Assembly (NCBI GenBank): GCA_035506275.1
Contig: DATJPT010000010.1
Location: forward strand, 62,001 to 126,000
DNA length: 64,000 bases
Direction of reading: 5' to 3'
Source of the DNA: Bacteroidota bacterium
Lineage (GTDB): Bacteria; Bacteroidota; Ignavibacteria; UBA10030; UBA8401
Made by a program: the position numbers and the translations under genes. The notes under the pieces are model-generated. The model was given only the letters and a program-made list of their open reading frames with translations. It had not been told where the DNA came from and did no database searches. This document shows positions 14,525 through 33,115 of the stretch, piece by piece (within the stretch, counting starts at the first letter, position 1; each line of letters starts with the position of its first letter).

Positions 14525-14599
14525 GGGCTCTTAGCTCAGTTGGTTTAGAGCGCTACCTTGACACGGTAGAGGTCAGAGGTTCGAATCCTCTAGGGCCCA
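14525..14599 (+). tRNA. tRNA-Val (anticodon GAC)
   Basis: A 75-base cloverleaf: acceptor GGGCTCT/AGGGCCC (one G-T pair), D arm GCTC..GAGC, anticodon arm CTACC-TTGACAC-GGTAG with anticodon GAC at 14560-14562, and T arm AGAGG-TTCGAAT-CCTCT. Discriminator base A at 14599. The 3' CCA is not encoded and would be added by tRNA nucleotidyltransferase. It reads Val codons GUC and GUU. It ends 29 bases before the end of the converging ABC exporter gene. Confidence 0.95.
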
Positions 14600-14628
14600 C
14601 AGATCCTTCCCCCGACCGACAGCCCGAT

Positions 14629-17844: not shown

Positions 17845-20064
17845 ATGGGACCCTCCATGCGCGCTCTATTTTCTCCGTATAAAACACTCTTTGTCATCGC
17901 TGTTGCTTGCGTTACTCTCTCTGCTCAGACCGATAAAAAGGGGCTGACCCTTGAGGATATTTTTAGCTCCGGCAAATATACAGGGAAAACGCTCAGCGGC
18001 ATCCATTGGATGAAAGACGGGGCACACTTTTCGTACACCGAAAGAGATACGACCGCAAAGGCCACAAGCATCTATGCTTATGATGTCAAAAAGAAATCAA
18101 GCGCGTTGATCCTCAGCACGGTGTCATTAAAGCTGAATCAAAACGACCCGCCGTTTCGTTTTACGACGTACCAGTGGTCTCCGAACGAGAAACAAATTCT
18201 CTTCATCTCTGCGCCGCCGGAGAGGGAATATTTGTCGCGTCTAACGCCCGCAGGCAATGTCTTTTTATTCGACCTGCAGTCCAAATTATTCCGCCGTCTT
18301 ACCAACGTCACTGAGCCTCAATACAATGTAAAATTCTCTCCGGATGGAAATTCTGTTGGTCTGGTCCGTCAAAATAATATCATCGTGATCGATATTGCAT
18401 CCGGCACAGAGCATCAATTGACAAAGGACGGGGCAGAGCATGTCATCAACGGAAAGTTCGATTGGGTCTACGAAGAAGAATTTGAAATTTCGGACGGCTG
18501 GCAATGGTCTCCGGACAGCAAACACATTGCGTTTTGGCGGCTCGATGAAAATCGCGTCCCTGAATACACGATGACCGAATGGGATTCCCTGTACCCAACA
18601 TTGATACCGATGCGTTATCCGAAAGCGGGTGAACCGAACTCCATCGTCAAAATCGGCGTTGTCGATGTCCAGACTGGTACAACGCAGTGGATGGACCTTG
18701 GCGCGAACGACGATATTTACGTTCCAAGAATGAATTGGACGAAAGATCCGTCGGTCCTTTCGATTCAGCGGCTGAATCGCGCGCAGAATACCATCGAGCT
18801 CCTGTATGCCACGATCGCCACCGGGGCGACCAAAGCCGTCGTAACGGAATCCGACGACAAATGGATCGACGTGACGAACGACCTTACGTTCTTAAAGGAT
18901 GGGAAATTTATTTGGCCCTCCGAACGCGACGGCTATCGTCATCTCTACCTCTACAAAAACGATGGGACGCTTCTTAACCAAATTACAAAAGGGGAGTGGG
19001 AAGTGGAATCATTTTACGGCGTGGATGAAGAGAACGGCGAACTGTATTTTTCTTCCACGGAAGAGTCCCCACTTGAACGGCAGGTCTATAAGATCCGATT
19101 GAACGGGAAAGGTAAAACCCGGCTGACGGCAAAGGCCGGAACACATGCGGCAAATTTTTCCCCCTCCATGGAATATTTCCTCGACACGTACTCAAATATT
19201 TCGACCCCTCCGTCCGTAGCAATCCTCAGGAATGACGGAAGGCCGATCGCTACCGTCGTGGAAGGCGCTATTCCGGCCCTTAACGATCTTCAACTGGGGA
19301 AGACCTCATTCCTCTCGGTAACGACGTCCGATGGCGTCCGGCTCAACGCGGCGATTATGAAGCCGGCTGATTTCGATTCAACAAAAAAATACCCGGTTCT
19401 CGTTTATACATACGGCGGTCCCGGCTCTCAGGTCGTTGTCAACAGATGGGAACGGACGTCGGATGTTCTTTGGTACACCTATTTGACGCAGCACGGCTAT
19501 TTGATCTTCATGATCGATAATCGTGGAACCGGTGCACGCGGAAAAGCCTTTAAGACGGCCGGATACAGAAATTTGGGGAAGTGGGAAGTGCATGACCAGG
19601 TGGAAGGAGCGAAGTATCTCGGCTCGCTCCCGTACGTTGACAGATCCAGGATCGGCATCTGGGGATGGAGTTACGGCGGTTATCTGACAAGCATGGTGAT
19701 TCTCAACGGCGCTGATTACTTTAAGACTGCGATCGCCGTTGCCCCGGTCACCAGCTGGCGGTATTATGATAACATTTACACAGAACGCTATATGGGCACT
19801 CCTCAGAATAATCCGGAGGGATATGCGGAGAGCTCGCCGATCACCCACGCTGCAAAACTTAAAGGAAATTTCTTATTGATCCACGGAACGAGCGACGACA
19901 ATGTTCATTTTCAGAACTCGGCGAACTTTGTTTCTGCGCTTGAAAAGGCCAACAAACAGTTCTCGGTCCGGTTTTACCCCGATAAAAATCATGGTATCTA
20001 TGGAGGCGTGACCCGTCTTAATCTTTATACATTGATGACCAACTTCATTTTTGCAAATTTATAG
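17845..20064 (+). CDS. secreted S9 family peptidase, dipeptidyl peptidase IV type
   Basis: 739 residues from ATG 17845. The ATG at 17857 is equally possible; a longer frame back to 17698 overlaps the previous gene and precedes the signal peptide, so it was rejected. A signal peptide (ALFSPYKTLFVIAVACVTLSA) is followed by an N-terminal beta-propeller with the WVYEEEFE double-Glu motif that binds the substrate amino terminus, and a C-terminal alpha/beta hydrolase. The catalytic triad is Ser about 609 in GWSYGG, Asp about 684 in GTSDDN, and His about 716 in DKNHGIYGG. DPP4 enzymes release X-Pro dipeptides in the periplasm or outside the cell, consistent with peptide scavenging. Confidence 0.92.
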   Translation: MGPSMRALFSPYKTLFVIAVACVTLSAQTDKKGLTLEDIFSSGKYTGKTLSGIHWMKDGAHFSYTERDTTAKATSIYAYDVKKKSSALILSTVSLKLNQNDPPFRFTTYQWSPNEKQILFISAPPEREYLSRLTPAGNVFLFDLQSKLFRRLTNVTEPQYNVKFSPDGNSVGLVRQNNIIVIDIASGTEHQLTKDGAEHVINGKFDWVYEEEFEISDGWQWSPDSKHIAFWRLDENRVPEYTMTEWDSLYPTLIPMRYPKAGEPNSIVKIGVVDVQTGTTQWMDLGANDDIYVPRMNWTKDPSVLSIQRLNRAQNTIELLYATIATGATKAVVTESDDKWIDVTNDLTFLKDGKFIWPSERDGYRHLYLYKNDGTLLNQITKGEWEVESFYGVDEENGELYFSSTEESPLERQVYKIRLNGKGKTRLTAKAGTHAANFSPSMEYFLDTYSNISTPPSVAILRNDGRPIATVVEGAIPALNDLQLGKTSFLSVTTSDGVRLNAAIMKPADFDSTKKYPVLVYTYGGPGSQVVVNRWERTSDVLWYTYLTQHGYLIFMIDNRGTGARGKAFKTAGYRNLGKWEVHDQVEGAKYLGSLPYVDRSRIGIWGWSYGGYLTSMVILNGADYFKTAIAVAPVTSWRYYDNIYTERYMGTPQNNPEGYAESSPITHAAKLKGNFLLIHGTSDDNVHFQNSANFVSALEKANKQFSVRFYPDKNHGIYGGVTRLNLYTLMTNFIFANL

Positions 20065-20125
20065 GGGAAATACCTCCCCATCCTGCAAAAAGGACGGGAA
20101 TGACGCCTTAAATGGCGATTGTTTG

Positions 20126-20156
20126 TTGCATGTTTCTTCGTTTTTAGCTAATTTAT
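20126..20156 (+). promoter_or_regulatory. promoter of the thrS-infC-L35-L20 operon
   Basis: TTGCAT (20126-20131), 17 bases, TAATTTAT (20149-20156). The -33 box is identical to that of the GNAT promoter. Transcription from about 20162 would produce a leader of roughly 110 bases ending at the thrS start and containing the terminator at 20225-20260. Confidence 0.45.
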
Positions 20157-20224
20157 AGTTAAACAAGGGAGCATATACTGGAAGTGATTCATAGCGGAAT
20201 TCAGCGAGAAAGAATCAGTTTGTG

Positions 20225-20260
20225 AATCGGAGATAGCTCTCTCCGATTTTTTATTTTTTA
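20225..20260 (+). terminator. intrinsic terminator in the thrS leader (probable attenuator)
   Basis: AATCGGAGA (20225-20233) and TCTCCGATT (20240-20248) form a perfect 9-bp stem with a 6-base loop, and a T-rich tract (TTTTTTATTTTTT) follows. It ends only about 12 bases before thrS. An upstream GATTCA (20186-20191) can pair with TGAATC (20223-20228), which includes the base of the terminator stem, so the two structures exclude each other. That is the layout of transcription attenuation. No T-box consensus (TGGnACCGCG) and no Thr-rich leader peptide were found. Confidence 0.6.
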
Positions 20261-20272
20261 GGTTGTGATGTG

Positions 20273-22213
20273 ATGAACACAGTGACGATAACTTTTCCGG
20301 ACAACAGCAAAAAAGAATTCGAACGCGGGATAACCGGGGCTCAGATCGCAGAGGGGATCAGCCGCGGTTTGGCGAAGAACGCTCTTTCGGTAACTGTCAA
20401 CGGCGAAGTATGGGATCTCAGCCGCCCGATCAACGGCGACGCTGCGGTCAAGATTAATACATGGGATTCTCCGGAAGGAAAATCGACGTACTGGCACAGC
20501 TCCGCCCACTTGATGGCCGAAGCGGTCGAAACACTGTTCCCCGGAACCAGGTTTGGCATCGGCCCGTCGATCGAAAACGGCTTCTACTATGATATCGATA
20601 TGGGGGACCACTCCCTGACGAGCGAGGACCTTGCCGCGATCGAAGCAAAGATGAGGGAATTTGCTGAGCGGGACGAGAAGTTTCAGCGTGAAGAGGTCCC
20701 CTGGGAAAAAGCCGTCGATTATTTCACGAAGAAAGGGGATCAGTACAAACTGGAATTGCTGAATGAGTTCAAGGGGGAATCGATCAGCATGTATCATCAG
20801 GGAGATTTCACCGACCTGTGCTATGGTCCTCACATTCCCTCGACAGGAAAGATCAAGTTCATCAAACTGATGAACGTTGCGGGAGCCTATTGGCGCGGCA
20901 ACGAGAAGAATAAAATGCTTCAGCGGATCTACGGTATCACCTTCCCGACGAAGCAAGAACTCGACGACTATCTTTTCAGGATCGAGGAGGCCAAGCGACG
21001 AGACCATCGCAAGATCGGCGCCGAGATGGAATTATTTCTTTTGACCCCGAAAGTGGGTGCCGGTCTGCCGCTCTGGATGCCGAAGGGAACGGTGATCCGC
21101 GAAACGCTGGAAAAATTCTTGCGCGAAGAACAGCGGAAACGAGGCTATCTTCCTGTTGTCACTCCTCATATCGCGAATTTAGAGCTCTACAAGACGTCGG
21201 GGCACTATCCGTATTACAAGGACTCTCAATTCGCGCCGATCACGATGGAGGATGGAGAACAGTTTTTGCTGAAGCCGATGAATTGTCCGCATCATCATCA
21301 GATCTATTCCGCGAAGCCCCGGTCGTACCGCGACCTGCCGATCCGCCTGGCGGAATTTGGCACTGTGTACCGATACGAACAATCCGGCGAGATGAGCGGA
21401 CTGACGCGCGTTCGCGGCTTTACACAGGATGACGCCCACATTTATTGCTCGCATGATCAATTGAAACAGGAGATCGCACGAACGGTCGAGCTGACCCAAT
21501 TTGTCTTCCGCACATTTGGCATGGAGGTCACCACGCGGCTTTCTTTCCGCGACGACAAGAACGTCGATAAATTCGGGGGCGATGCCGCGTTTTGGGAACA
21601 AGCGCAGCGGGAGATCAAAGAAGTTGCGGACGAGATGAAGCTGACCTATTTCGTCGGAATCGGCGAGGCTTCGTTCTATGGACCGAAGATCGACTTCATG
21701 GTGAAGGATGCCATCGGAAGAACCTGGCAGCTCGGCACAGTGCAGGTCGATTATGTGATGCCCGAACGATTTCAGTTGGAATTCACCGGGGCCGACGGTC
21801 AGAAGCACCGCCCCGTCATCATCCACCGCGCTCCGTTCGGGTCATTCGAGAGATTCATCGGCATTCTCATCGAACATTTTGCGGGGGATTTCCCGCTCTG
21901 GCTCGCTCCGGTGCAGGCGGTCGTTATTCCGATCACCGACGCACACGCAGAATATGCAACGTCCATTCTCGAAAGCCTGAAGAAGGCCGATATCAGGGCG
22001 GAATTTGACGATCGGAACGAGAAGGTCGGATACAAAATCCGCGACTGGGAGCTGAAAAAAGTTCCGTACATGGTTGTCGTCGGCGAGAAGGAGAAGGCGG
22101 CAGGGACGGCGTCCGTCCGCCAGCACAAAAAAGGCGATTTGGGCAGCGTCATTCCGGCAAGATTTATTGAACAGCTCCAGAACGAAATACAACAAAAATC
22201 TATCACGGCATAG
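20273..22213 (+). CDS. thrS: threonine--tRNA ligase
   Basis: 646 residues from ATG 20273 (a GTG at 20270 is adjacent). Order of domains: TGS (residues 1-60), editing domain with the HSSAH motif (about 73), class II catalytic core with the zinc-binding MNCPHHHQIY segment and the FTQDDAHI motif, and anticodon-binding domain (about 545-640). It charges tRNA-Thr in the cytoplasm. Its stop codon overlaps the ribosome binding site of infC, and the order thrS-infC-rpmI-rplT is the conserved one. A leader with a terminator suggests regulated expression. Confidence 0.97.
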   Translation: MNTVTITFPDNSKKEFERGITGAQIAEGISRGLAKNALSVTVNGEVWDLSRPINGDAAVKINTWDSPEGKSTYWHSSAHLMAEAVETLFPGTRFGIGPSIENGFYYDIDMGDHSLTSEDLAAIEAKMREFAERDEKFQREEVPWEKAVDYFTKKGDQYKLELLNEFKGESISMYHQGDFTDLCYGPHIPSTGKIKFIKLMNVAGAYWRGNEKNKMLQRIYGITFPTKQELDDYLFRIEEAKRRDHRKIGAEMELFLLTPKVGAGLPLWMPKGTVIRETLEKFLREEQRKRGYLPVVTPHIANLELYKTSGHYPYYKDSQFAPITMEDGEQFLLKPMNCPHHHQIYSAKPRSYRDLPIRLAEFGTVYRYEQSGEMSGLTRVRGFTQDDAHIYCSHDQLKQEIARTVELTQFVFRTFGMEVTTRLSFRDDKNVDKFGGDAAFWEQAQREIKEVADEMKLTYFVGIGEASFYGPKIDFMVKDAIGRTWQLGTVQVDYVMPERFQLEFTGADGQKHRPVIIHRAPFGSFERFIGILIEHFAGDFPLWLAPVQAVVIPITDAHAEYATSILESLKKADIRAEFDDRNEKVGYKIRDWELKKVPYMVVVGEKEKAAGTASVRQHKKGDLGSVIPARFIEQLQNEIQQKSITA

Positions 22214-22224
22214 GAGATACCCGC

Positions 22225-22785
22225 ATTAAAAGTAAAGGCCCTCGCATCAACGACGAGATTCGGATCGCGCAGATCCGGGTCATCGACGACAACGGGCAGC
22301 AGCTCGGAGTCATGACGCCCCGCGAAGCGATCACCATCGCCCAGCAAAAAGGAAAAGATCTTATCGAAGTTGTGCCTAATGCCACGCCCCCGGTCTGCAA
22401 GATCATGGACTTCGGCAAATACAAGTACGAACTTCAGAAAAAAGAGAAAATTCAGAAGAAACATCAGCACGTTAGCCTGGTCAAGGAACTTCGTTTCCAT
22501 CCGAACACCGACGTTCACGATTTCGAGTTCAAGGCCAAGCATGCGATGCAGTTTATTGCAGACGGGCACAAAGTAAAGGCGACGGTGATATTCAAAGGAC
22601 GGGAAATTACGTATAAGGACCACGGCGAAAGCCTTTTGAACCGCCTCACCGAACGGTTGAGCGAGGTCGCAAAGATCGATCAACCCCTCCATATGGAAGG
22701 ACGCAGCATGATCATCTTCTACGCCCCCGATAAGTCGGGCAAACTGAAGACGGAAAAAGTAGCCACAGAAAATAAACCAGCATAA
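22225..22785 (+). CDS. infC: translation initiation factor IF-3, with AUU start codon
   Basis: 186 residues if translation starts at ATT 22225. The conserved IF-3 N-terminus (KGPRINDEIR) is encoded only upstream of the first in-frame ATG (22312), there is no ATG, GTG or TTG in that stretch, and AGGAG at 22212-22216 is placed 8 bases before the ATT. The same AUU start is used by E. coli infC, where IF-3 represses its own translation by rejecting non-standard start codons. The N-domain ends near residue 75, the linker is KYKYELQKKEKIQKK, and the C-domain follows with VKELRFHPNTDVHDFEFK. IF-3 binds the 30S subunit and proofreads initiation. Confidence 0.93.
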   Translation: MKSKGPRINDEIRIAQIRVIDDNGQQLGVMTPREAITIAQQKGKDLIEVVPNATPPVCKIMDFGKYKYELQKKEKIQKKHQHVSLVKELRFHPNTDVHDFEFKAKHAMQFIADGHKVKATVIFKGREITYKDHGESLLNRLTERLSEVAKIDQPLHMEGRSMIIFYAPDKSGKLKTEKVATENKPA

Positions 22786-22799
22786 CACGAAGGAAAACC

Positions 22800-22994
22800 A
22801 TGCCTAAAATGAAATCGCACCGGAGCGCCCGCAAGACCTTCAAGGTCACCGGGACCGGCAAGATCAAGCGCCACAAGATGAACCGCCGCCATATCCTGAC
22901 GAGCAAATCGACGAAACGCAAACGGCATCTTCGCCGCCCCGGATTGATCTCCGGCGTCGATGAACAGAAGATCAAGCGCTTGTTGGTCGTCTGA
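22800..22994 (+). CDS. rpmI: 50S ribosomal protein L35
   Basis: 64 residues, very basic, beginning PKMKSHRSARKTFKVTGTGKIKR, the standard L35 signature, with a GAAGGA ribosome binding site. It sits between infC and rplT as in most bacteria, 14 bases after infC. It is a structural component of the large ribosomal subunit. Full expected length. Confidence 0.97.
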   Translation: MPKMKSHRSARKTFKVTGTGKIKRHKMNRRHILTSKSTKRKRHLRRPGLISGVDEQKIKRLLVV

Positions 22995-23047
22995 CGAAGT
23001 TTCTAATTCACATCTAATCACATTCACTAAAGGAGAAAAGAGCAACT

Positions 23048-23395
23048 ATGCCACGTTCGCAGAACAAAGTTGCCTCCCATCGCCGTCGCAAGAGAATTTT
23101 GAAAGAAGCGAAAGGCTATTGGGGTGCGAGAAGCAAAGTCCTGACGGTAGCCAAGCACAGCGTCGACAAGGGCTATCAGTTCGCCTACAGGGATAGGAAA
23201 GCGAAAAAGAGAACATTCCGCCAACTGTGGATCGCCCGCATTAACGCCGCGGCCCGCCTGCACGGAATGACCTATTCAGCACTCATCGACGGCATGCATA
23301 AGAAACAGGTCGACATCAACCGCAAGGTTCTTGCTGAACTCGCCGCCGGAAATCCCGAAGCATTTGCAGAAATTGTAAAATTTGTAAAAGCCTGA
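23048..23395 (+). CDS. rplT: 50S ribosomal protein L20
   Basis: 115 residues, matching L20 along its length: [25 protein letters not shown] at the start, then [21 protein letters not shown] and the globular C-terminus. AAAGGAG precedes the start. L20 is an early assembly protein of the 50S subunit, and in other bacteria it represses its own operon. A strong terminator follows at 23402-23448. Confidence 0.97.
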
Positions 23396-23401
23396 TCATT
23401 G

Positions 23402-23448
23402 CTTCCCGCCATACCATGTGTTCGGTATGGACGGGAAGTTTTGTTTTT
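23402..23448 (+). terminator. strong intrinsic terminator between rplT and pheS
   Basis: CTTCCCG plus CCATACC (23402-23415) pairs with GGTATGG plus CGGGAAG (23424-23438), a 14-bp stem with one bulged A, followed by TTTTGTTTTT. The pheS start is only 19 bases further on, and no promoter was seen in between, so pheST is probably expressed by read-through or controlled attenuation at this point. Confidence 0.8.
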
Positions 23449-23466
23449 ATCCGGAACAACAGCATC

Positions 23467-24498
23467 ATGACCGAATCTTCGACCACTCTTGAACAATCAA
23501 TTCAGTCGGTACGCGCCGCTGCCCTGACGGCATCCGAAAAAATTACGTCATCGGATGAGCTGGAAAAATACAGGATCGAGTTCCTCGCAAGGAAAGGACG
23601 CGTCGGCAATCTTTTCGATGAGCTCAAGTCCGTTCCCCCCGAATCGAAGCCGGGCCTCGGCAAGCAATTGAACGAGCTTCGCACTTTCGCCGATTCGTTG
23701 TATCGATCGGCCAAAGAGAAGGTCGAGTCCGCGACCCCGACACGGCAGAGTTTTATCGACCTGACCCTTCCGGGGAGAAGACCTCACATCGGCAGCCTGC
23801 ACCCGATAACCCAGACCCTCAGCGACATCACATCGATCTTTACCTCCATGGGATTCAGTATCGTCGATGGTCCCGAAATCGAGGATGACTACCACAATTT
23901 TGAGGCGCTGAATTTTCCCCCCGATCACCCTGCCCGCGATATGCAGGATACTTTTTTTATTGAGGATACTATTCTGCTCAGGACGCACACGTCGCCCGTC
24001 CAGATCCGAGTGATGAAGGAACGGCGCCCCCCCCTGCGCGTGATCATGCCGGGACGCGTCTACCGGAACGAGGCCATCAGCGCCAGAAGCTACTGCCTCT
24101 TTCACCAGGTTGAGGGGCTGTACGTCGACAGAAATGTGAGCTTCAGCGAGTTGAAGGGGACGCTCGTCGCCTTTGCCCGGGAATTCTATGGAAGCAGCCT
24201 GAAGTATAAATTCCGCCCCAGCTTCTTCCCGTTCACTGAGCCAAGCCTGGAAATGGACATCACATGCTTCCTGTGCTCCGGAAAGGGCTGCCGCGTATGC
24301 AAACATTCTGGCTGGCTTGAGATTCTTGGAGCCGGAATGGTACACCCGAACGTTCTCAGAAATGTCGGCTACGATCCTGAGGAGTTTACGGGGTTCGCAT
24401 TTGGGATCGGCGTCGAACGGACAACGCTTCTGCGCCACAACATTTCCGACATCCGCCTCTTGTTTGAGAACGATATTAGATTTCTAAAGCAGTTTTAA
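23467..24498 (+). CDS. pheS: phenylalanine--tRNA ligase alpha subunit
   Basis: 343 residues from ATG 23467; the longer frame back to 23416 runs through the terminator hairpin and was rejected. An N-terminal coiled coil (about 1-90) is followed by the class II catalytic core: [11 protein letters not shown], the motif 2 region with GRVYRNEAI and LFHQVEGL, a Cys cluster [17 protein letters not shown], and motif 3 [16 protein letters not shown]. It makes Phe-tRNA with the beta subunit encoded 11 bases downstream. Confidence 0.96.
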
Positions 24499-24509
24499 TC
24501 TGAGCACCT

Positions 24510-26951
24510 ATGCGTATATCCCTCAATTGGTTACGCCGTTACATTGAATTTAAAATCAGCCCGGAAGATCTGGCGCAGAAACTCACTTCGGTAGGATTGG
24601 AAGTGGAAGGGATTGAACATCTCGGCCGGGTCTTTGACAATTTCGTCGTAGGCGAAGTGCTGTCGGTCAAGAAACATCCGAACGCAGACAGACTATCCCT
24701 TTGCGATGTACGAGTTGCAGAAAGGGATCATGAGTCTGCCGTGCTGCGGATCGTCTGCGGTGCTCCGAATGTTGCCGCAGGACAAAAGGTCGCGGTGGGG
24801 CTGGCTGGAGCGGTCGTCCCGAAAAATCAACACGACCCCGAAGGGAAACCGTTCACGCTTTCAAAGGTAAAAGTGCGGGGAGAAGAATCGAACGGTATGA
24901 TCTGTTCGGAATACGAACTCGGACTCGGCAAGGATTCAAACGGGATTTTGGTCCTCGATGCGGCCGCGCATGCCGGCGAACCTCTTGCAAAATACCTGGG
25001 GCTCGACGACACGGCGTTCGAAATCGGCGTGACGCCCAACCGCCCCGATTGTTTGAGCCATTACGGCATTGCAAGAGAAGCGGCGCCGCTTCTCAATAAG
25101 AAGCTTGTTCTTCCTAAAACGATCATTCGGGAACAGAAAAAGAGTGACGCAAAGAAGGATATTGCGATCGAGATTAGAAATAATGAAGCTTGTCGCCGTT
25201 ATTCTGCGCGGCTGGTAAAAAATGTCAAGGTCGCTCCTTCGCCGCTATGGCTTCAATCATTGCTCAAGACATGCAACATCAGACCCATCAATAATATTGT
25301 CGACGTTTCAAATTTCGTGATGCTTGAAACAGGCCAGCCGCTGCATGCGTTTGATTACGACAAACTCCGCGGAAAAAAAATTGTTGTCAAGAACGCCGCC
25401 GAAGGGGAAAAATTCACGACACTCGACGGTGTCGATCGCTCGCTTTCTTCATCCATGCTGATGATCTGCGACGGCGAACGAAACGTCGCGATCGCGGGCG
25501 TTATGGGGGGACTGAATTCAGAGATATCGGAAATGACAACGTCGATCCTGATCGAGAGCGCATATTTTCAGCCGTCGAGCATCCGTAAAACCGCGAAGCG
25601 CCTGGGCCTTTCTTCGGATGCGTCGTACAGGTTCGAGCGGGGGACCGATCCTAATGGAACCCTCTTCGCCGCCGACCGTGCCGCTTCGCTGCTTGAAGAG
25701 ATCGCGGGGGGCATCGTCCAAAAAGGGGCCATCGATATCTATCCAAAAAAAATAAAGGAGCGGACGATCGGACTGCGGCTGGACCGTGCCAATAAGATAT
25801 TGGGAACGACGATACGGGCGAACCGCATAAAGAAGATTCTGCTGCCGATCGGCATCAAGCTGCGCACAGCGTCTGGCGGTAAATTTGCATGTTCGGTGCC
25901 GACTTTCCGTCCCGACCTCGAACAGGAGATCGATATCGTTGAAGAGATCGCACGGCTGCATGGCTATACCAACATTCCGGACAGCATGGGATCGATGATC
26001 GATTTTTCGCAGCATAGAACGAACAATAACGCCGTCGATGATATCCGCAATTCCCTTGAAGGAATCGGTTTCCATGAAGTCGTAACAAACAGCCTTGTCG
26101 AAGAGAGTGTAGCAAAGATATTCTCGGAAGACATTGTCCGGATCAAGAATCCTATCAGTAAGGATCTTGCTGCGATGCGTCCGAGCATGGTCGGGAGTAT
26201 GCTCCAGACAGTTTTTTATAATTCGAACTACGGGACCAGCGACATTAGGGTATTTGAAATTGGAAGGACCTATAAGAAGGTCGACAGGAGCTTTCCGAAA
26301 ACCACGGTCCCCGGGTTCTTGGAGACAAAAACCCTCGCAATTTGTATGGCTGGAAGGAAAAATGAGGTCGGATGGTATTCCAGCGACGTCGCCGTCGATA
26401 TTTATGACATCAAAGGGGTTGTCGAGGGGCTGCTGAACAAAATTCTACTTGACAAATTTCAATTTATTTACTATGATAGCCGTAGTCCTTTAACTGAAGA
26501 GACTATAGCCATTGAAAAAGATGGTACTTACATCGGCTCTCTCGGCAAGGTGAAAAAAGATTTACTTAAGAAATTTTCACTTGAAAGTGATGTTTATGTT
26601 GCCGAGCTAACCATTGAAAATTTGATACCGGAGGAAAAAAGCTTCAAAAATTATACGCCGTCATCGAAATTTCCTCCTGTGACGCGAGATTTAGCCTTCA
26701 TTGTTGAAAAGAAAGTATTAGCGGAAGATGTTAACCGGCTTATTCGAACGAGCGGCGCGCCGTTGCTAAAATCGGTTACGCTGTTCGATGTGTTCGAGGG
26801 AGAGCCGTTGAAAGATGGAAAGAAAAGTTTCGCCTTCGCTCTCGAATTGAATTCTGTCGAAAAAACCCTGACGGAGGGCGAAGCCGACGCTGTGATCAAA
26901 AAAATTATCTCTGACGTTTGCGGTAAATTCGGTGCGGAGCTGCGAAGTTGA
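24510..26951 (+). CDS. pheT: phenylalanine--tRNA ligase beta subunit
   Basis: 813 residues, full length. Domains in order: B1, EMAP-like tRNA-binding domain (about 39-155), B3/B4 editing domain (about 210-390, with SNFVMLETGQPLHAFDYD), B5 (about 405-475), the catalytic-like core, and the C-terminal anticodon-binding FDX-ACB domain (from about 718, beginning YTPSSKFPPVTRDLAF). It forms the (alpha-beta)2 enzyme with PheS and hydrolyses mischarged Tyr-tRNA-Phe. It is followed after 29 bases by a coiled-coil gene and zapA. Confidence 0.96.
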   Translation: MRISLNWLRRYIEFKISPEDLAQKLTSVGLEVEGIEHLGRVFDNFVVGEVLSVKKHPNADRLSLCDVRVAERDHESAVLRIVCGAPNVAAGQKVAVGLAGAVVPKNQHDPEGKPFTLSKVKVRGEESNGMICSEYELGLGKDSNGILVLDAAAHAGEPLAKYLGLDDTAFEIGVTPNRPDCLSHYGIAREAAPLLNKKLVLPKTIIREQKKSDAKKDIAIEIRNNEACRRYSARLVKNVKVAPSPLWLQSLLKTCNIRPINNIVDVSNFVMLETGQPLHAFDYDKLRGKKIVVKNAAEGEKFTTLDGVDRSLSSSMLMICDGERNVAIAGVMGGLNSEISEMTTSILIESAYFQPSSIRKTAKRLGLSSDASYRFERGTDPNGTLFAADRAASLLEEIAGGIVQKGAIDIYPKKIKERTIGLRLDRANKILGTTIRANRIKKILLPIGIKLRTASGGKFACSVPTFRPDLEQEIDIVEEIARLHGYTNIPDSMGSMIDFSQHRTNNNAVDDIRNSLEGIGFHEVVTNSLVEESVAKIFSEDIVRIKNPISKDLAAMRPSMVGSMLQTVFYNSNYGTSDIRVFEIGRTYKKVDRSFPKTTVPGFLETKTLAICMAGRKNEVGWYSSDVAVDIYDIKGVVEGLLNKILLDKFQFIYYDSRSPLTEETIAIEKDGTYIGSLGKVKKDLLKKFSLESDVYVAELTIENLIPEEKSFKNYTPSSKFPPVTRDLAFIVEKKVLAEDVNRLIRTSGAPLLKSVTLFDVFEGEPLKDGKKSFAFALELNSVEKTLTEGEADAVIKKIISDVCGKFGAELRS

Positions 26952-33057: not shown

Positions 33058-33081
33058 TTGTACCGGTCACAGACGTGACAA

Positions 33082-33115
33082 AGGCGTTCTGCGGAACGCC
33101 TTTTTTATTTTAAAA
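33082..33115 (+). terminator. intrinsic terminator
   Basis: AAAGGCGTTC (33082-33091) pairs with GAACGCCTTT (33096-33105), followed by TTTTATTTT. It ends the second outer-membrane protein gene; nadB begins only 22 bases further on. Confidence 0.9.

Follow-up and report, generated by a model that had tools for sequence, protein, structure and literature searches.

The window, a 64,000-nucleotide stretch of a Bacteroidota genome (assembly GCA_035506275.1, contig DATJPT010000010.1, positions 62,001 to 126,000; genome G000 below), contains a run of translation genes headed by thrS (table 1). Pfam matches confirm thrS, infC, rpmI, rplT, pheS, and pheT, including the pheST pair that the preliminary description had listed as possible. 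The frame of infC has no ATG, GTG, or TTG before 22312, and it appears to start at ATT, as E. coli infC does. Between the tRNA-Val(GAC) gene and thrS lie an ABC-transporter-like ORF, a response regulator, and a DPP-IV-like gene, and reading by eye finds no terminator-like hairpin right after this tRNA.

Table 1. Features of the thrS locus, in window coordinates
Feature	Position	Strand	Basis or remark
tRNA-Val(GAC)	14525..14600	+	5.6 kb upstream in the window, same strand; adjoins thrS in most relatives
Predicted Bacteroidota-type promoter	20126..20156	+	TTGCAT (20126-20131) and TAATTT (from 20149); TTGCAT-N17-TAATTT, 20-nt spacing after TTG
Predicted transcription start	20161..20161	+	from the published position of the -7 box, -12 to -5
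Upstream hairpin TGATTC (20185-20190) / GAATCA (20212-20217)	20185..20217	+	part of minimum free energy fold; compatible with terminator
Proposed antiterminator pairing GATTCA (20186-20191) / TGAATC (20223-20228)	20186..20228	+	present in sequence
Terminator hairpin	20224..20249	+	9 Watson-Crick pairs and one G.T; sequence, fold, conservation
T-tract TTTTTTATTTTTT, predicted release region	20247..20259	+	kept in relatives with other stem sequences
thrS	20270..22213	+	start GTG 20270 or ATG 20273; Pfam tRNA-synt_2b, HGTP_anticodon, tRNA_SAD, TGS
infC (IF-3)	22225..22785	+	probable ATT start 22225-22227 behind GGAG; Pfam IF3_N, IF3_C
rpmI (L35)	22800..22994	+	Pfam
rplT (L20)	23048..23395	+	Pfam
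pheS, pheT	23416..26951	+	pheS 23416-24498, pheT 24510-26951; Pfam

The thrS leader in the window

As first described, a 9-bp stem followed by a strong T-tract stands between the candidate promoter and thrS. Its arms, AATCGGAGA (20225-20233) and TCTCCGATT (20240-20248), form nine Watson-Crick pairs around the loop TAGCTC with an outer G.T pair, and the T-run TTTTTTATTTTTT ends 10 nt before the possible GTG start. The T-tract scores 5.56, near the top of eight compared in genome G000 (range 3.11-5.58), and in its exact form the hairpin with its T-run is unique in that genome. The Bacteroidota promoter consensus appears in print as TTTG / TAnnTTTG. A promoter inside the T-tract, with a start past the terminator, was rejected by eye because its spacing misfits in the window.

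The terminator is the top-listed of 15 terminator-like sites in 18000-26000, a region whose shuffles give a mean of 10.8 sites. The whole leader has an unremarkable folding energy (z = -1.13, matched by 27 of 200 shuffles). A general terminator scan alone is weak evidence for a thrS leader terminator, and it is conservation that makes the case. Another strong terminator-like hairpin in the window (33080-33110) lies 36 nt ahead of a 541-aa ORF; it has no promoter match upstream and is probably the end of the preceding gene.

No Rfam cis-regulator reaches gathering score within the window, and the interval 20050-20350 yields chance matches only at E up to 10 (best ToxT_thermometer, E 0.71). The absence of a T-box consensus noted earlier agrees with the Rfam scan, in which the T-box model has no match at gathering score in the window or in 10 further loci; the L20-leader model has no match in the window either, and the 23S rRNA, whose L20 site a mimic would resemble, was not found in genome G000. 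The window leader also contains, by eye, no Thr-rich ORF, again in agreement with the preliminary description. A possible short frame seen by eye in G000 and its genus-mate G001 was dropped as a leader peptide, being neither Thr-rich nor conserved further.

Conservation of the hairpin and of what precedes it

We searched 98 genomes of the order, of which 90 contain thrS and 84 have a readable gene start; the six loci dropped have a thrS match without the N-terminus. Under one fixed rule (hairpin and T-tract within the last 80 nt before thrS, 160 nt for L011), the element lies directly before thrS in 70 of the 84 loci, compared with 1.5% of shuffles. By family the counts are 16/18 in f1, the family of the window, 2/5 in f2, 8/13 in f3, 1/2 in f4, 14/17 in f5, and 29/29 in f6. 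Two of the 14 loci that fail this strict call, L011 and L012, show a hairpin by eye with a shorter T-run. A looser rule finds the hairpin in 73 of the 84 loci and in 12 of 41 further named loci (79 named loci were taken, 38 of which duplicated the 84; one further locus lacking a gene start was left out). Among these 41, Ignavibacterium- and Melioribacter-like genomes often carry the hairpin, and it is absent by eye from Kapabacteria-like genomes. Some of 20 more distant genomes of the class, read by eye, have tRNA-Val and the hairpin (L205, L206, L209, L210, and L213); many have neither. The hairpin can be lost, since in several f2 and f3 genomes tRNA-Val runs into thrS with no hairpin between them.

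Stems vary yet pair, as in CGGAG/CTCCG, CGTCCC/GGGACG, and CGTCCCGC/GCGGGACG, and most of the 70 hairpins keep the core CGGAG/CTCCG or CGGA/TCCG. The hairpin caller accepts paired stems only, so the pair counts, taken from fixed-rule calls, describe the variety of paired stems and are no free covariation test; a MAFFT alignment of 25 hairpins misplaced those of f5 and was left unused. The f5 relatives have other stem sequences and retain the T-tract, and reading by eye reveals no conserved motif in the loops. The T-tract begins a median of 22.5 nt before the thrS start, and there is therefore no room for another promoter.

Within f1, TTG-N20-TAnnTT precedes the hairpin in 15/17 readable leaders (shuffles 2.6%) and TTGCAT-N17-TAnnTT in 13/17 (shuffles 0.06%), L020 being too short to include; L015 and L017 show, by eye, TTGCAT and TATACT at a shorter spacing. 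With the promoter before the hairpin, a thrS transcript has to cross the terminator. Promoter and hairpin core are separated by one of three distances: 72-75 nt in G000, G001, and two genomes of g2, 27-29 nt in nine others, and 7 nt in two genomes of g8. It is therefore the hairpin that stays constant, and not the leader before it. The predicted mRNA of the 7-nt group (L025 and L026) begins with the hairpin, and with almost no RNA before it there is little space for a leader peptide.

Outside f1, tRNA-Val(GAC) commonly lies within 320 nt upstream of thrS (f5 17/17, f6 23/29, f3 10/13, f2 4/5, f4 0/2); within f1 it lies upstream in 4 of 18 loci, at up to 1500 nt, and these four (L014, L022, L023, and L024) have the order tRNA-Val, promoter, hairpin. 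Forty-six non-f1 loci combine tRNA-Val with the hairpin, separated by 9 to 155 nt (<40 nt in 23), and none of the 46 gaps contains the promoter pattern. At these loci run-through of the hairpin is the only way for thrS to be read, unless a promoter of another type hides in the gap or the tRNA. The RNA between the tRNA or start site and the hairpin shows no conserved structure overall when folds are compared with shuffles: mean z is -0.91 for f1, -0.02 for f3, and -1.32 for f6, not clearly more stable, and z falls below -3 in a few f6 leaders (L046, L073, L028, L034, and L041).

Terminator, switch, or binding site

To the preliminary description the leader looked like an attenuator in which GATTCA pairs with TGAATC in competition with the terminator; such a switch would be thrown by some signal. 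That pairing exists and overlaps the base of the terminator stem; for G000 taken singly, about 3% of shuffles produce an equally good helix, and similar overlaps are present in two f4 and some f3 leaders. We nevertheless give such a switch hardly any credence. The pairing is lost in the genus-mate G001 (shuffle p 0.73), where the upstream hairpin TGATTC/GAATCA is likewise not conserved by eye. We compared the pairing between the upstream stretch and the bases at the hairpin foot with shuffles in 54 leaders (the other 19 of the 73 called loci had too little upstream sequence), and 5 of them reach p<0.05 (the window at 0.027, L022, L057, L085, and L087), which is near chance. Only the window and L022 do so among the 16 f1 leaders tested, and the partner in L022 sits upstream of the L022 promoter. 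Combined p values are 0.10 for f1, 0.24 for f6, and 0.014 for f3; a TTTCAG..CTGAAA pairing touches the terminator foot in some f3 leaders (L085, L087, and L088), and f3 may have a foot pairing of its own. On its own the competitor is weaker than the terminator by about 10 kcal/mol (-2.8 against -13.2), and the best full fold containing it reaches -19.0 kcal/mol against -22.3 with the terminator. Furthermore, GATTC has a closer partner in the earlier GAATCA, a non-competing pairing (TGATTC/GAATCA, -3.4 kcal/mol) that leaves the terminator intact. GATTCA/TGAATC is thus not a trait of the window's family. Lack of conservation in relatives is the outcome that the preliminary description had itself named as refuting, and it counts against the switching part alone; the other part, a terminator behind a promoter, is borne out across the order.

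The hairpin and T-tract are conserved, no promoter fits after them, and a promoter or tRNA stands before them, all of which argues that thrS transcripts have to cross a terminator. We therefore read the hairpin as restricting the flow that starts at the promoter. Our preferred interpretation, to which we assign a probability of about 0.58, is that the thrS leader holds an intrinsic terminator acting as a flow restrictor, with no built-in antiterminator and with descent from a tRNA-Val operon; it is probably a restrictor and not a sensor. RNA polymerase would start near 20161 and make about 95 nt, part of the transcripts would be released in the T-tract (at about 20254-20259), and the remainder would read through into thrS-infC-rpmI-rplT and perhaps pheST. 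How much reads through would depend on hairpin and T-tract strength, possibly also on polymerase-bound factors, and not on GATTCA/TGAATC. Most likely the element goes back to a tRNA-Val operon that relied on read-through of this same hairpin to express thrS; in the window's family a promoter between the tRNA and the hairpin would then have been gained or retained, the tRNA having become separated in the window. The transition from tRNA terminator to thrS leader can apparently be seen in L014, L022, L023, and L024. Several observations seem to weigh against a restrictor: 14 of the 84 order loci fail the strict call and the hairpin can be lost, the CGGAG core is kept more than pure structure should need, and a few f6 leaders have stable upstream folds. 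In addition, the T-tract is among the strongest of the eight, so an unregulated terminator must be leaky to serve an essential operon.

The kept stem core, together with the uniqueness of the hairpin and T-run in the genome, would suit autoregulation in trans: termination would change when ThrRS, IF-3, L20, or an elongation factor attaches to the hairpin or to the leader as it emerges. L20 acts in this way by attenuation in B. subtilis (PMC10931766), and no antiterminator is visible in our leaders, an absence from which, in the case of the rimP-leader, the involvement of a protein has been argued (Naville and Gautheret 2010, PMC2965389). The different stems of f5, loops with no motif by eye, and the lack of an Rfam L20-leader or T-box match speak against such binding, and we consider it possible but unlikely. 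The hairpin might also be a relic of tRNA-Val termination that does nothing for thrS today, which fits the tRNA-Val that precedes it in most relatives; however, the window's family keeps the hairpin with a promoter between tRNA and hairpin or with no tRNA near, and an essential operon would be expected to shed a useless terminator quickly, making this quite improbable. Even less probable is a hairpin that protects the mRNA 5' end, or a U-rich ribosome landing site, in place of a terminator: the predicted L025 and L026 transcripts would match a 5' hairpin, but families with different stems all have the T-run directly against the stem, and what precedes the hairpin in many relatives is a tRNA and not an mRNA 5' end.

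Related leaders and wider pattern

A literature search covering titles and abstracts found no account of this particular leader. The closest analogue is the rimP-leader (PMC2965389), a short conserved terminator before an operon of ribosome and transcription factors; the sequence of its stem is conserved, it lacks any larger structure, an antiterminator cannot be seen in most species, and it sits 4-130 nt before the gene. It differs in its genes (rimP-nusA-infB) and stem (GGGc..gCCC, compared with CGGAG..CTCCG before thrS), and the window has no rimP-leader Rfam hit. The L20-leader of the B. subtilis infC operon attenuates transcription before infC-rpmI-rplT (PMC10931766), as the thrS element would, but it has two alternative L20-responsive structures, whereas the window has none such, places thrS first, and has no Rfam match. 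The GraL/greA leader of E. coli (PMC6829880) is comparable: it is very short (19 nt before its terminator), transcription terminates within it, and it is hard to class as attenuator or riboswitch. It differs in gene and sequence, in that its terminated RNA also acts in trans, and in that termination there increases with GreA. T-box leaders of thrS and other synthetases share a terminator in a synthetase leader, but the window leader is too short and has no Rfam T-box. We would thus place the thrS element outside the rimP-leader, T-box, and L20-leader families. The E. coli thrS translational operator is a regulatory leader before the same downstream gene order, acting on translation via tRNA-like hairpins, whereas the window leader has a T-tract terminator instead.

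Other promoter-proximal terminators may exist in the genome. A background scan of 1.664 of the 3.715 Mb of G000, with ORF starts set mechanically, gave 96 terminator-like sites, 22 of them within 50 nt before an ORF start and 5 of these 22 with a promoter pattern up to 150 nt upstream, a count made without shuffle control. The five precede thrS, a Pyr_redox enzyme gene that we take to be lpdA, greA, lon, and one uncharacterised ORF (Pfam supports greA, lpdA, and lon). The greA site (L249:9485-9615, G000 contig 10) has a promoter, a short leader, the hairpin AGCCATTGTTC..GAACGATGGCT, and a T-rich tail; its hairpin recurs in 18/18 family loci by eye, without shuffle control, with a different stem in L298. 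At the lpdA-like gene (L188:12335-12505), a promoter is followed by about 95 nt, the hairpin AGAGGGAAT..ATTCCCTCT, and a T-tract just before the ATG, and the hairpin is found in 12 of the 16 family loci shown, of 20 found, again by eye and without shuffle control. Before lon (L193:8330-8466), 31 nt separate a promoter match from a 6-pair hairpin with T-tract, 45 nt ahead of the ATG.

Speculatively, growth genes of this Bacteroidota/Ignavibacteria lineage (thrS-infC-rpmI-rplT, greA, lpdA, and perhaps lon) could use promoter-proximal terminators with no antiterminator as an early-elongation checkpoint, their read-through following the global state of RNA polymerase (GreA, NusA, nucleotides, ppGpp) and not gene-specific sensors; we hold this to be an improbable generalization. 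What the present analysis contributes is a conserved terminator in the leader of thrS-infC-rpmI-rplT, from a branch that has had little study, and a plausible origin for it, as a tRNA operon terminator kept as a restrictor once the promoter lay behind the tRNA. The contrast within the window's family, in which about 1, 22, or 70 nt precede the same hairpin, is a natural experiment on the importance of the upstream leader.
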